Notes under the pieces: generated by a model | Seen by the model: only the letters and a program-made list of their open reading frames with translations | What the model was told of the DNA's origin: nothing | Databases searched by the model: none | Position numbers and translations under genes: made by a program | Assembly: GCA_016206285.1 (NCBI GenBank) | Contig: JACQRW010000013.1 | Span: 1 to 37,052 of the forward strand | Direction: 5' to 3' | Length of the DNA: 37,052 bases | DNA from: Candidatus Sungiibacteriota bacterium | GTDB lineage: Bacteria; Patescibacteriota; Minisyncoccia; Sungbacterales; HO2-52-23 | Shown here: one piece after another, positions 5,673 through 27,029 of the stretch | How positions within the stretch are numbered: position 1 is the stretch's first letter | Layout of the letters: each line of letters begins with the position of its first letter

Positions 5673-6761
5673 TCATCCATACTTCGATATGTTTAACAAT
5701 ACTCCGATGCTTGCCATGGTAATGACCAACGACGTCCCCCCATAGCTTACCATAGGAAGGGGTATTCCGGTAAGCGGGAGAAGTCCGGAAATTGCCGACA
5801 TGTTAATAAATGCCTGGGTTAGAATTCCAGCTGATATGCCTGCCGCGAGCAGTTTGCCAAACATATCAGGCGCGCGTTTTGCGATAAAAAGTCCGCGCCA
5901 GAAAAATGCCGCAAAAAGCGCCAACAAGCCGCATGCGCCGATAAACCCGGTTTCTTCGGCAAAAATCGCAAAGATCGAATCACCCATCGGCTCCGGCAAG
6001 TATGAATATTTTTGCAAACTTTTGCCGAATCCAAGGCCCCAGAATCCGCCCGATCCGATGCCGATGGATGCCTGGTTGATCTGGTATCCGACTCCTTTCG
6101 GATCCGTCTGCGGATGCAGAAAAACAAGAACACGATTCAGCCGGTACGGCTCTATTTGTATGAGCAGAAGCAGCGCGATCAGTCCAAATAAGCCCAGCAT
6201 TGCCATTTGCGAAATCTTGCCTCCGCCGAGGAAGTAAAGAATACCTGCGGTTGCCACGATTACGCCAAGCGTGCCTATATCTTTCTGCATGACAAGAAAG
6301 GTGCCCACAATCGCGATCATGATAGAAAACGGGATCATGCCGTATGAGACGCTTTTGATTTCTTTTCGGCGGGCGTCAAGCCAGCTTGCAAGATAGACCA
6401 GAAAAGAAAATTTGAGCACTTCGGACGGCTGGAAACTGAACGAACCTATATGCAGCCATCGGCGCGCTCCTCCTGCGACATAACTCAATTGAGGCAAAAA
6501 CAGAAGGGCTGCAAGCAAAAAAGACAGTATCATGAGCGGCAGGGCAAAACGCTTCCATACGCGGTACGGCAGCCACTGGGTAAAGGCGAGGACGAGTCCG
6601 CCCAGGATTCCTCCATATAAAAATTGCCGCAAAATATAAAAGGAAATAGTACCGAAGTTTTTTTGCGAGATCACCATGGATGCCGAGGCCAATATCAAAA
6701 GCCCCACGATCAAGATCGCAAGCGAGATAAAAAGCATTGGTTTGTCGAGCGAGTGGGGCAT
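5673..6761 (-). CDS. ftsW: FtsW/RodA/SpoVE family SEDS protein, probable FtsW
   Basis: Multi-TM; GGARRWLHIGSFSFQPSEVLKFSFLVYLASWL, FAEETGFIGA, PLTGIPLPMVSYGGTSL; murD-ftsW-murG order. Confidence 0.93.
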   Translation of the reverse strand: MPHSLDKPMLFISLAILIVGLLILASASMVISQKNFGTISFYILRQFLYGGILGGLVLAFTQWLPYRVWKRFALPLMILSFLLAALLFLPQLSYVAGGARRWLHIGSFSFQPSEVLKFSFLVYLASWLDARRKEIKSVSYGMIPFSIMIAIVGTFLVMQKDIGTLGVIVATAGILYFLGGGKISQMAMLGLFGLIALLLLIQIEPYRLNRVLVFLHPQTDPKGVGYQINQASIGIGSGGFWGLGFGKSLQKYSYLPEPMGDSIFAIFAEETGFIGACGLLALFAAFFWRGLFIAKRAPDMFGKLLAAGISAGILTQAFINMSAISGLLPLTGIPLPMVSYGGTSLVITMASIGVLLNISKYG

Positions 6762-24511: not shown

Positions 24512-25000
24512 TCAATTCGAAACCTGAAAATATTTCGGGGAGCCGTTCCAGCCGCTGGTTGGGGCTGCAAAAACGCCTTTGCCGCCGTCGGGAGTGGGCG
24601 CGGACATATTGGAGAGCGTTATGGGTTCGGCGTCGTTTTCCAGATTCGCGTACAGGGCGCACTTTCCGTCTGCGGTTACGAGGTATCGGTAAAATGACTG
24701 GACGGAAGTGCCGGGACCGGGATCCCGCGGCGTTTGCGAAAGGATAGTTGCATATTGCGGGTATGCGGCGCGCAATTCCACCAGGAGATCGGCAAGGTCG
24801 TACTCCCCTGCTCCGGCAGCCGGAAGATAGCATGATCCGGAAATAAATCTTCCGATTTGGGAAATTTCCACTTTGCGCTTTGTATCCCGGGCTTTTTTAA
24901 GCGCGGTATTCACCGATACGGCAATCATGGACGCAAGAATCCCGATAATCGCCACAACTACAATAATTTCAATTAACGTAAAACCTTTGCGTTTGTGCAT
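24512..25000 (-). CDS. Type IV pilin / pseudopilin-like protein
   Basis: Prepilin motif KRKGFTLIEIIVVVAIIGILASMIAVSVNTALKKARDTKRK. Confidence 0.9.
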   Translation of the reverse strand: MHKRKGFTLIEIIVVVAIIGILASMIAVSVNTALKKARDTKRKVEISQIGRFISGSCYLPAAGAGEYDLADLLVELRAAYPQYATILSQTPRDPGPGTSVQSFYRYLVTADGKCALYANLENDAEPITLSNMSAPTPDGGKGVFAAPTSGWNGSPKYFQVSN

Positions 25001-25006
25001 ATATCT

Positions 25007-25261
25007 TTAGCAACTGATGCAAAAAATGCAACAACTGGACTTATTGGAATTTGCAATGTGCATTTTTTGCATATTGCTTTTGGAGCTTACTTCTTTTTCT
25101 CGGAAGATACTATTGATATGGCGTGAAATCACTGACTGGTCTTTCTCATATAATGACACAATATCTGCCTGTGTCGCCCAAATCGTATCGCGCGCGACAT
25201 CACCGTGAAGCTCAAGAGCCCCTGATTTTGCCTGATAGATGATGGTGTTTTTCTCTTTCAT
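25007..25261 (-). pseudogene. Truncated RhuM-like (virulence RhuM family) N-terminal fragment
   Basis: NTIIYQAKSGALELHGDVARDTIWATQADIVSLYEKDQSVISRHINSIFREKEVSSKSNMQKMHIANSNK then SSCCIFCISC*; rest of the family domain absent. Confidence 0.72.
25017..25072. repeat. 14-bp perfect inverted repeat at the 3' end of the RhuM fragment
   Basis: ATGCAAAAAATGCA (25017-25030) / TGCATTTTTTGCAT (25059-25072), imperfect extension AGCAA(C)T(G). Confidence 0.85.
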
Positions 25262-25264
25262 AAT

Positions 25265-25693
25265 CTAATCCTTGAATATCTTTTTTCTCACTTCGTATGA
25301 AAAGATCGTTGGAATGAAGTATGTTATCTCCGCGGTCAGTGATCCCAAGAGTATTGCCAGTGAATAATTGGAAATGAAATATGGAAAAGCGGATAGGTAG
25401 AACGGTCTCAGAAGAAAGCTGTCGAAATATTCGGCAGGGCCAAATTCGATGATCATATTTCTGGCCTGTTTGAATAAGTTTGCGATGCCGAAGCGCCTTG
25501 TTTTTAAATCCCGGAATATGATGTATCCGTAAAATGCCAAGTTATCCATCCATGTGGCCGCAATACCGGCGATGATATTGTTTCCCGAGATGGATTTTAT
25601 AACATGCGCCGAAATAAGCGCCGCAAGGGTCGCAAGGACCAAAGGCACGCTATATCTCTTGAACCATTCTTTTATCTTATTTTTTACTTGCAT
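25265..25693 (-). CDS. Hypothetical membrane protein
   Basis: 142 aa, several hydrophobic segments. Confidence 0.65.
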   Translation of the reverse strand: MQVKNKIKEWFKRYSVPLVLATLAALISAHVIKSISGNNIIAGIAATWMDNLAFYGYIIFRDLKTRRFGIANLFKQARNMIIEFGPAEYFDSFLLRPFYLSAFPYFISNYSLAILLGSLTAEITYFIPTIFSYEVRKKIFKD

Positions 25694-25721
25694 AGACCCG
25701 ACCTATTATCTGTTTCGAAGG

Positions 25722-25808
25722 CGGAGGGTGAGAGATTCGAACTCTCGATGGAGTTTCCCCCATACCGCCTTTCCAAGGCGGCGCACTAGGCCACTATGCG
25801 AACCCTCC
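25722..25808 (-). tRNA. tRNA-Ser (anticodon GGA)
   Basis: GGAGGGT...ACCCTCC acceptor, CGCCTTGGAAAGGCG anticodon arm, long variable arm TATGGGGGAAACTCCATC, GAGAGTTCGAATCTCTC T-arm, discriminator G; CCA not encoded. Confidence 0.96.
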
Positions 25809-26048
25809 AAGGTTATATTTCTTTCTTATCTCTTCCCTTCTATATCGTTTTTTGTACTCTTTTTCAAGAATGACCGATTCTTGTTCTGTTGGCACCTCTA
25901 TATTTTCAACCATGACGAAAGGTCTTCTGGATTTTGTCGATGCAACTTTACCGGAATTGTGTTCTTTTATCCGTCTCGCCAAATTATTCGTTCTGCCAAT
26001 ATATAGATTCTTATCTTTGAGACTTTGAAGAATATAGACGTAAAACAT
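25794..26048 (-). CDS. GIY-YIG endonuclease (single-domain), 3' end overlapping tRNA-Ser
   Basis: MFYVYILQSLKDKNLYIGRTNNLARRIKEHNSGKVASTKSRRPF...; last codons GGA GGG TTC GCA TAG are tRNA-Ser nt 1-15. Confidence 0.9.
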   Translation of the reverse strand: MFYVYILQSLKDKNLYIGRTNNLARRIKEHNSGKVASTKSRRPFVMVENIEVPTEQESVILEKEYKKRYRREEIRKKYNLGGFA

Positions 26049-26056
26049 AGCATGTT

Positions 26057-26108
26057 GCACTAGGCCCCTGCCTGCCGGCAGGCAGGGCTATGCGAACCCT
26101 CCAAGGTT
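26057..26108. repeat. Duplicated 5' end of tRNA-Ser (6 nt flank + tRNA nt 1-26), interrupted by a 22-bp palindrome
   Basis: gcactaggcc + cctgcctgccggcaggcaggg + ctatgcgaaccctccaaggtt versus gcactaggcc + a + ctatgcgaaccctccaaggtt at 25783-25814. Confidence 0.93.
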
Positions 26109-26120
26109 GTCTATAAAATA

Positions 26121-27029
26121 TTACCGCTTTTCCTGGAGCGCCAGAATACGATCTTCGATCGGCGGATGCGTGGAGAATAGCTTGACGATCCACGGGGTCT
26201 TCCGCTCGCCGAATTCATGGTCCGCGCCAAACGGATTTTCAAAAAAGAGATGCGCGGTCGCGTTGGTGGCGGTTGCAAGCGGACGCTTGTATGAGCCGAT
26301 TTTTTTCAGCGCGGAGATCAGGCCGTCCGGGTAGCGCGTGAGGAGCGCGCCGGAGGTATCTGCCAGAAACTCCCGCCTGCGCGAGATGGCAAGTTGGATC
26401 AGTGTGGCAAAAATAGGAGCCAGAATTGAGAGCGCGATACCGATAATGAGGAGAACTCCGTTATTGCCGCGCTCGTCATCGCTCCGGCGGCCGCCGAACC
26501 AGAGCGAGCGCATAAACATATCCGACAGGATCGAGACCATGCCGACCAATACGACCGCCACAGTGGAGACCAGCATATCGCGGTTGCCGATGTGCGAGAG
26601 TTCGTGGCTCAATACTCCCTCAAGTTCGGAACGGTCAAGCATGCCCAGCAGACCCTCGGTAACGCATATGACCGCATGATCGGCGTTGCGGCCGGTTGCA
26701 AACGCATTGGGTGCGGCATCCGGGATCACATAGAGCGCCGGCATGGGAATGCCTGCGCTGATGGAGAGATTTTCCAGTATGCGGTACAGCTCCGGATTGT
26801 CTTTTACTTGGACCGGTTTGGCATGGTGAAGCGCGAGTACGATCTTGCCGCTGAACCAATAGCTTACGACGTTCATAGCGATGCTGAATATGACCGCAAC
26901 ATAGAGAATGCCCGGGTTATGGTAGACTTGGCTGAACGCCCACCCGATTGCGATGACCACGCCGAAAAAGCCGGACATGAGCAGCCATGTTTTCCTGATA
27001 TTCGCCGATTTTTGCGTGTAGAGCGTCAT
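26121..27029 (-). CDS. htpX: Zinc metalloprotease HtpX (M48)
   Basis: NAFATGRNADHAVICVTEGLL, ELEGVLSHELSHIGNRDMLVSTVA, REFLADTSGALLTRYPDGLISALKKI, FSTHPPIEDRI. Confidence 0.95.
   Translation of the reverse strand: MTLYTQKSANIRKTWLLMSGFFGVVIAIGWAFSQVYHNPGILYVAVIFSIAMNVVSYWFSGKIVLALHHAKPVQVKDNPELYRILENLSISAGIPMPALYVIPDAAPNAFATGRNADHAVICVTEGLLGMLDRSELEGVLSHELSHIGNRDMLVSTVAVVLVGMVSILSDMFMRSLWFGGRRSDDERGNNGVLLIIGIALSILAPIFATLIQLAISRRREFLADTSGALLTRYPDGLISALKKIGSYKRPLATATNATAHLFFENPFGADHEFGERKTPWIVKLFSTHPPIEDRILALQEKR

Follow-up and report, generated by a model that had tools for sequence, protein, structure and literature searches.

The nearest working analogue of the locus described here is SegB of the T-even phages, a free-standing GIY-YIG homing endonuclease encoded in a tRNA gene cluster (PMC13096335, citing Brok-Volchanskaya 2008). 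SegB cuts inside phage tRNA genes and amplifies segB together with the tRNA in tandem by recombination (PMC13096335). The nearest structural analogues are the mORFs of fungal mitochondria, found in atp6 of Allomyces and in atp6, atp9, cox2, and nad3 of Glomus, in which an endonuclease gene brings a replacement gene end, the native end is displaced beyond the insert, and both occupied and empty relatives occur (PMC3630166). MORFFO elements of fern plastids are mobile ORFs whose association with both tRNA genes and palindromes is strong (PMC7338519), and GIY-YIG insertions in rRNA genes of CPR bacteria are ORFs in RNA genes outside known introns, in the same bacterial group as the genome studied here (PMC11270868). 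Whether GIY-YIG families beyond the known homing and restriction enzymes are molecular parasites was left open in PMC1564403.

We analyzed a stretch of 37,052 nt, hereafter the window, from contig JACQRW010000013.1 (GCA_016206285.1) of a Candidatus Sungiibacteriota bacterium with an assembly of 754 kb. The nuclease of the window resembles SegB in being intron-less and encoded beside a tRNA gene. Whereas SegB is phage-encoded and the excerpted text of PMC13096335 describes no hairpin-disabled displaced tRNA for it, the module reported here is chromosomal, occurs in several bacterial phyla at 19 tRNA isotypes, and has an ORF that overlaps the tRNA. Its layout is like that of the mORFs when it is seen as two copies without a native or imported assignment; the mORFs, however, have organellar protein-gene targets, mostly encode LAGLIDADG enzymes, and are described without paired tRNA copies or loop hairpins (PMC3630166). 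The MORFFO elements are organellar and are likened to the bacterial module by description, and the CPR insertions are sparse and lie inside rRNA, in an account that leaves tRNAs unmentioned. No account of bacterial tRNA-flanking GIY-YIG modules was found in the open-access literature that was searched. Measured against that literature, the GIY-YIG nuclease, homing, and the carrying of a gene end are known, whereas a description of their combination in bacterial chromosomes, together with loop hairpins and a spare tRNA, was not found.

Results

Structure of the tRNA-Ser locus

On the minus strand, the end of an HtpX-like gene was followed by 12 bases, the displaced tRNA-Ser copy, the GIY-YIG ORF, the hexanucleotide AACCTT, and the intact tRNA-Ser(GGA) (Table 1). 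The portion repeated in the displaced copy comprised the first 26 nt of tRNA-Ser(GGA) and the six bases upstream, and was detected as two direct repeats, an exact one of 21 nt (25794-25814 and 26088-26108) and GCACTAGGCC (at 25783 and 26057). An exact 21-mer match within +/-700 nt has a chance probability of about 1e-7. The displaced copy reads AACCTT-GGAGGGTTCGCATAG-C-[CCTGCCTGCCGGCAGGCAGG]-GGCCTAGTGC and the intact copy AACCTT-GGAGGGTTCGCATAG-T-GGCCTAGTGC; a single base differs, beside the 20-bp palindrome, and the rest of the leader and of nt 1-26 is identical. The repeats are spaced 294 bp from start to start, or 274 bp without the palindrome. An initial annotation of this DNA had placed the ORF between two copies of the tRNA 5' end that differ only where the palindrome meets one base, with a duplication unit of 274 bp without the palindrome, and it was correct on each point. 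Its proposal that the copy next to the cassette supplies the intact 5' end, with a displaced remnant left upstream, was also supported.

Table 1. Features of the tRNA-Ser locus in the window
Feature	Position	Strand	Evidence
142-aa ORF on the far side of tRNA-Ser, flank only	25265..25693	-	ORF list
Intact tRNA-Ser(GGA)	25720..25808	-	ARAGORN; Rfam RF00005, 54.2 bits
GIY-YIG endonuclease ORF	25794..26048	-	Pfam PF01541, E=1.1e-17
AACCTT leader, common to both tRNA copies, coding within the GIY-YIG ORF	25809..25814	-	Repeat comparison
Displaced tRNA-Ser 5' part (AACCTT + nt 1-26), split by the palindrome in the D-loop	26057..26108	-	Repeats; alignment of nt 1-15 and 14-26
CCTGCCTGCCGGCAGGCAGG, a perfect palindrome of 20 bp within the displaced copy's D-loop	26067..26086	.	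Sequence
HtpX-like M48 peptidase, upstream neighbour and marker for the gene-less site in relatives	26121..27029	-	Profile search

The stop codon of the GIY-YIG ORF (TAG) corresponds to nt 13-15 of tRNA-Ser and thus lies inside the tRNA, and the tRNA together with its leader encodes the C-terminal residues NLGGFA (final codons AACCTTGGAGGGTTCGCATAG). The ORF encodes 84 aa from ATG, or 88 aa from an upstream GTG at 26060. The palindrome occurred once in the 754-kb assembly, which ruled out a dispersed repeat as its source, and CTGCCTGCCGGCAGGCAG was likewise unique in the genome. The 142-aa ORF on the far side of the tRNA had no match in Pfam or NCBIfam. Farther along the same strand lie an 84-aa ORF (25007-25261), which presumably resembles the N-terminal part of a RhuM-type protein in apparently truncated form and gave no match in a Pfam search, and a pilin-like protein with an N-terminal methylation motif (24512-25000; PF07963, E=1.5e-9).

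The GIY-YIG protein

The window protein scored 64.5 bits against PF01541 (cut-off, 22.6) and contained the GIY and YIG motifs together with the catalytic Arg and Glu, as is characteristic of a single-domain UPF0213-like GIY-YIG nuclease. The complete catalytic set of Tyr, Tyr, Gly, Arg, His, Glu, and Lys was present, and in an alignment of 54 members Y5, Y16, G18, R26, H30, E62, and K66 were invariant. The AlphaFold model (pLDDT 95) had UPF0213 1zg2 as its nearest fold, followed by SLX1; in both sequence and fold, the closest proteins were single-domain GIY-YIG proteins of the UPF0213/YhbQ type (PDB 1zg2 and 1ywl) and SLX1. SLX1 is a housekeeping structure-specific nuclease, and we know of no UPF0213/YhbQ-type or SLX1 protein that forms part of a tRNA-borne element. 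Phage matches were not found at E<=1e-5, and the match to PHROG homing-endonuclease families was weak. Membership in a defence system was rejected, PADLOC having given only weak GIY-YIG domain matches.

Gene-less sites in relatives

The initial annotation had proposed that the cassette was inserted on the 5' side of tRNA-Ser, and relatives lacking it were sought. Six other family genomes had HtpX followed by tRNA-Ser (GGA in five and CGA in one) with neither the GIY-YIG gene nor the duplication between them, and this upheld the proposal. Since these genomes keep the HtpX/tRNA-Ser order without the gene, the insertion is, judged by sequence comparison, derived. The gap between HtpX and tRNA-Ser was 61 nt in one genome (G006) and 177 nt in another (G002), where apparent broken fragments of a tRNA-Ser 5' end were recognized by eye; in the remaining four it was occupied by other genes. 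These gene-less sites come from other genera; the sister genome (G001) was dropped as a same-genus gene-less site because HtpX and tRNA-Ser(GGA) were missing from its assembly. Occupied and ORF-less alleles of the same site, as expected of a homing element, were found at tRNA-Ser and at a tRNA-Pro site of Flavobacterium.

In one locus (L066), a GGGAGGCGTCGCA fragment stood directly before the 5' end of tRNA-Ser(GGA), similar to the tRNA-Ser 5' ends of other genomes and dissimilar to its own. It is possibly the scar of an earlier insertion.

Association of stand-alone GIY-YIG genes with tRNA genes

All stand-alone GIY-YIG loci found with PF01541 in 23 order-level genomes (106 loci) were collected. 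In the first 100 nt from the stop codon of the ORF, tRNA genes started on the same strand in 17 instances against 0.27 expected (P ~6e-25), and none lay on the opposite strand; from 500 to 1200 nt beyond the stop, a single tRNA was found in seven bins. On the upstream side of the ORF, there were 14 same-strand tRNAs and 0 opposite-strand ones within 200 nt. As a control, UvrC domains from the same searches were examined, and 0 of 8 were near a tRNA, which ruled out UvrC as the origin of the signal. The enrichment of GIY-YIG ORFs at tRNA 5' ends with repeated tRNA fragments, a prediction of the initial annotation, was thus strong across related genomes. About 70% of the order's stand-alone GIY-YIG genes lay away from tRNAs, and the stand-alone family is therefore mixed.

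When all samples were taken together, 91 of 259 loci adjoined a tRNA, and in every one of them the strand was shared (103 nearby tRNA genes, 0 opposite); 19 isotypes were represented, with His missing. The samples other than the order set were picked by similarity, so that their rates are biased (phylum best hits, 19/29; genome-contig set, 23/48; Flavobacterium, 21/76). In 33 of 47 5'-side cases, the ORF stop fell in a range from 20 nt ahead of the tRNA to 39 nt into it. The arrangement was also present in cultured isolates, which excludes an artefact of metagenome assembly. The tRNA-linked GIY-YIG arrangement spans several bacterial phyla and most kinds of tRNA, and looks like a widespread family of minimal mobile elements that occupy tRNA genes yet leave them whole.

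The genome of the window contained a second case, in which the ORF at C11:6136 ended about 10 nt inside tRNA-Lys(UUU). A displaced tRNA-Lys 5' part containing the palindrome TCCGTCGGCTGACGGA lay upstream of it, and a complete pseudo-tRNA-Lys with two further palindromes lay downstream; the sister genome had the same arrangement with two downstream pseudo-copies. The tRNA-Lys palindrome, TCCGTC[AG]GC[TC]GACGGA, occurred three times in the window genome and five times in the sister genome, only at that locus. A third GIY-YIG gene of the window genome was not at a tRNA and was flanked by a 32-nt exact repeat (L001, 823-854 and 1766-1797) with the hairpin CCCGCTTTCGCGGG. Elsewhere, two tmRNA genes were preceded on the same strand by stand-alone GIY-YIG ORFs, at distances of 94 nt (L017; ORF 5992-6258, tmRNA 6352-6735) and 132 nt (L243); tmRNA, which is tRNA-like, may be targeted as well.

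Displaced copies and the mirror form

A displaced copy was called when the alignment of the adjoining tRNA to the far side of the ORF beat all shuffles. By this measure, 14 of 16 and 12 of 13 5'-side loci in two sets (26/29 together) and 9 of 16 in two later sets had one, usually starting at tRNA nt 1 or 2. In a mirror form, the tRNA upstream of the ORF was intact and the copy, which usually extended to the tRNA 3' end, lay downstream. Such 3'-side copies were detected in 17 of 20 Flavobacterium loci against 8 of 23 in the order and genome-contig sets; the 3'-side cases of Patescibacteria were mostly without a detectable displaced copy (detected in 4/13), and the 3' form is accordingly less sure in that group. 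A lifestyle confined to the tRNA 5' end had been suggested for the element. The 5' form itself stood, but its exclusiveness did not, with the mirror form behind the tRNA 3' end being the main form in Flavobacterium.

Some displaced copies were nearly complete (nt 1-71 in L024 and nt 6-76 in L373), which suggests, at the level of sequence, one basic form in which two tRNA copies surround the gene and one of them decays. Because the mirror form exists and a displaced copy can, as in several loci, amount to almost an entire tRNA, two tRNA copies flanking a nuclease gene, one kept and one disabled, are a better description than insertion at the 5' end. In one locus (L105), the D-loop of a displaced tRNA-Val contained a palindrome whose arms enclosed a second tRNA-Val(GAC), which was intact (1770-1842, numbered along the ORF strand).

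Hairpins in the displaced copies

The palindrome of the window is not an incidental feature. GC-rich palindromes sat in the tRNA loops of the displaced copy and recurred in most loci, in the D-loop in 5'-side cases (after GGATA in tRNA-Arg) and in the anticodon arm or variable region, sometimes also the T-loop, in 3'-side cases. The window palindrome CCTGCCTGCCGGCAGGCAGG was found in Patescibacteria, Bacteroidota, and Omnitrophota, and other loci had unrelated hairpin sequences in the same places. Every motif copy was at the tRNA/GIY-YIG locus in a Flavobacterium genome of 3.9 Mb (G016) and in a genome of 3.4 Mb (G021), and only some copies were so placed in other genomes; genome G013 was left out of this scoring. 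In one locus (L075), the ORF itself lay between two inverted-repeat arms inside a displaced tRNA-Phe.

The hairpins were individually significant at p<=0.01 in 17 of 39 loci. Folding z-scores below -2 were obtained for 13 of 30 displaced copies of the 5' class versus 3 of 28 controls, and for 10 of 21 of the 3' class versus 4 of 21 controls. Since these scores were separated only moderately from the controls, the perfect palindromes and their positions were given more weight than folding. We infer that the hairpin is a device disabling the spare tRNA. A hairpin-bearing tRNA-like fragment beside an intact tRNA-Met, with no GIY-YIG gene nearby (L150, 803-1012; G014 C3:184922), may be a relic or a non-autonomous form.

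Arrays, relics, and isotype-specific clades

The trxB/tRNA-Pro locus was conserved in Flavobacterium, and among 27 such loci with the tRNA, 3 had the GIY-YIG gene and 24 had none. The occupied loci consisted of an array of five 350-bp units, a single unit, and one ending at a contig edge. At least 4 of the 24 GIY-YIG-less loci retained pseudo-tRNA-Pro relics with the anticodon arm replaced by a hairpin. Other arrays contained two to six units of 350-390 bp, some of them 99% identical. Behind one tRNA-Pro (L357), pseudo-tRNA-Pro units were repeated in tandem at least three times, with no GIY-YIG gene; every unit had a hairpin in the anticodon arm and a terminator-like hairpin of its own.

In a tree of 89 tRNA-linked proteins, based on 85 columns and with many unresolved forks, the tRNA isotype changed 49 times, against at least 61 times in 200 within-phylum shuffles. 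Within this limited resolution, an Arg(CCT) clade united Bacteroidota and Omnitrophota. Protein clades thus appear to track the tRNA isotype.

Discussion

We consider it likely that the module is an intron-less homing-type GIY-YIG unit with its own tRNA copy and with putative mobility, cleavage activity, and hairpin function. The nuclease would cut or structurally attack an uninterrupted tRNA gene of its favoured isotype, and repair from the donor through tRNA homology would install the arrangement found in the genomes, tRNA*-ORF-tRNA or the mirror form tRNA-ORF-tRNA*. The host would be spared by the tRNA copy whose sequence remains intact. The second copy would be disabled by the hairpins present in its D-loop, anticodon arm, variable region, or T-loop, which would remove a second cuttable or tRNA-like target. 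Further rounds or unequal exchange would produce the tandem arrays observed, and decay the hairpin-bearing pseudo-tRNAs. In the window, tRNA-Ser(GGA) is the intact partner, and the displaced 5' part with CCTGCCTGCCGGCAGGCAGG lies 5' of the ORF. A point against this model is that the intact tRNA in an occupied locus should be an expected target too. No carrier phage, virus, or plasmid was found in our searches.

Integrase islands are usually recognized by their tRNA sites and by repeats of the tRNA end, and the locus shares both. An ordinary tRNA-targeted island or a group I intron remnant is nevertheless hardly conceivable: the unit of about 350 bp has no integrase gene and the GIY-YIG ORF is the only one between the repeats, which ruled out an integrase-type island; no full-length relative with an integrase between the same repeats was seen; 5' and 3' ends are duplicated equally often; and the ORF overlaps the mature tRNA. 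A group I intron-encoded endonuclease was ruled out since no Rfam group I or II intron was found at 25600-26200, and the unit is situated outside a complete tRNA. Because tRNA genes are recombination hot spots, a GIY-YIG repair gene resident in the genome might instead have been trapped repeatedly between duplicated tRNA copies, with the nuclease as a passenger rather than the driver. The fold near that of SLX1 would suit such a repair gene, and unequal exchange alone can build unit arrays, but the total strand bias (103 nearby tRNA genes to 0), the matching of tRNA isotype to protein clade, the full conservation of catalytic residues, and the lack of tRNA association of the UvrC GIY-YIG domains speak against passive trapping, which we regard as improbable. 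That the duplication and amplification of tRNAs by the GIY-YIG enzyme benefit the host, as a spare tRNA against tRNA-cutting toxins or phages, seems very improbable. The tandem arrays would agree with it, as would the precedent of phage SegB against Septu (PMC13096335); however, most of the additional tRNA copies carry disabling hairpins, which keeps dosage from rising, and presence among relatives is sporadic.

A further alternative concerns the hairpins only and is compatible with the homing-module explanation. They could be independent REP/RPE-like mobile palindromes that gather in the neutral DNA of pseudo-tRNAs and are unrelated to the GIY-YIG module. Some genomes do have CTGCCNGCMGGCAG at scattered places (about 90 sites in Omnitrophota G019), and in some Bacteroidota it lies away from tRNAs. 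Against this, the palindrome of the window is single-copy in its genome, that of tRNA-Lys is confined to one locus in two genomes, all copies are at a tRNA/GIY-YIG locus in the two genomes of 3.9 and 3.4 Mb (both Bacteroidota), and elsewhere unrelated hairpin sequences fill the same tRNA loops. We regard an independent origin of the hairpins as rather unlikely.

The homing-type module, as we read it, offers a role for the large number of small GIY-YIG proteins that lack an assigned function. It would show that an element can colonise tRNA genes without an integrase or an intron if it supplies a spare copy of its target, and it accounts for the tRNA-like C-termini of annotated proteins and for some of the broken tRNA copies in annotations. 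Cleavage, spread, and the role of the hairpins are directly testable through the arrays, relics, and isotype-specific clades of cultured Flavobacterium. More tentatively, and with greater doubt than belief on our part, the units of about 350 bp might form a distinct class of element, made of a GIY-YIG gene and a tRNA copy, whose nuclease would be responsible for moving the unit and also for creating or targeting the hairpins. If so, it would be one of the smallest self-encoding elements, present at most tRNA isotypes in Patescibacteria, Bacteroidota, and other phyla. It would also reveal a structure-specific nuclease acting on tRNA genes and cruciforms, which might explain the movement of some dispersed palindromes.
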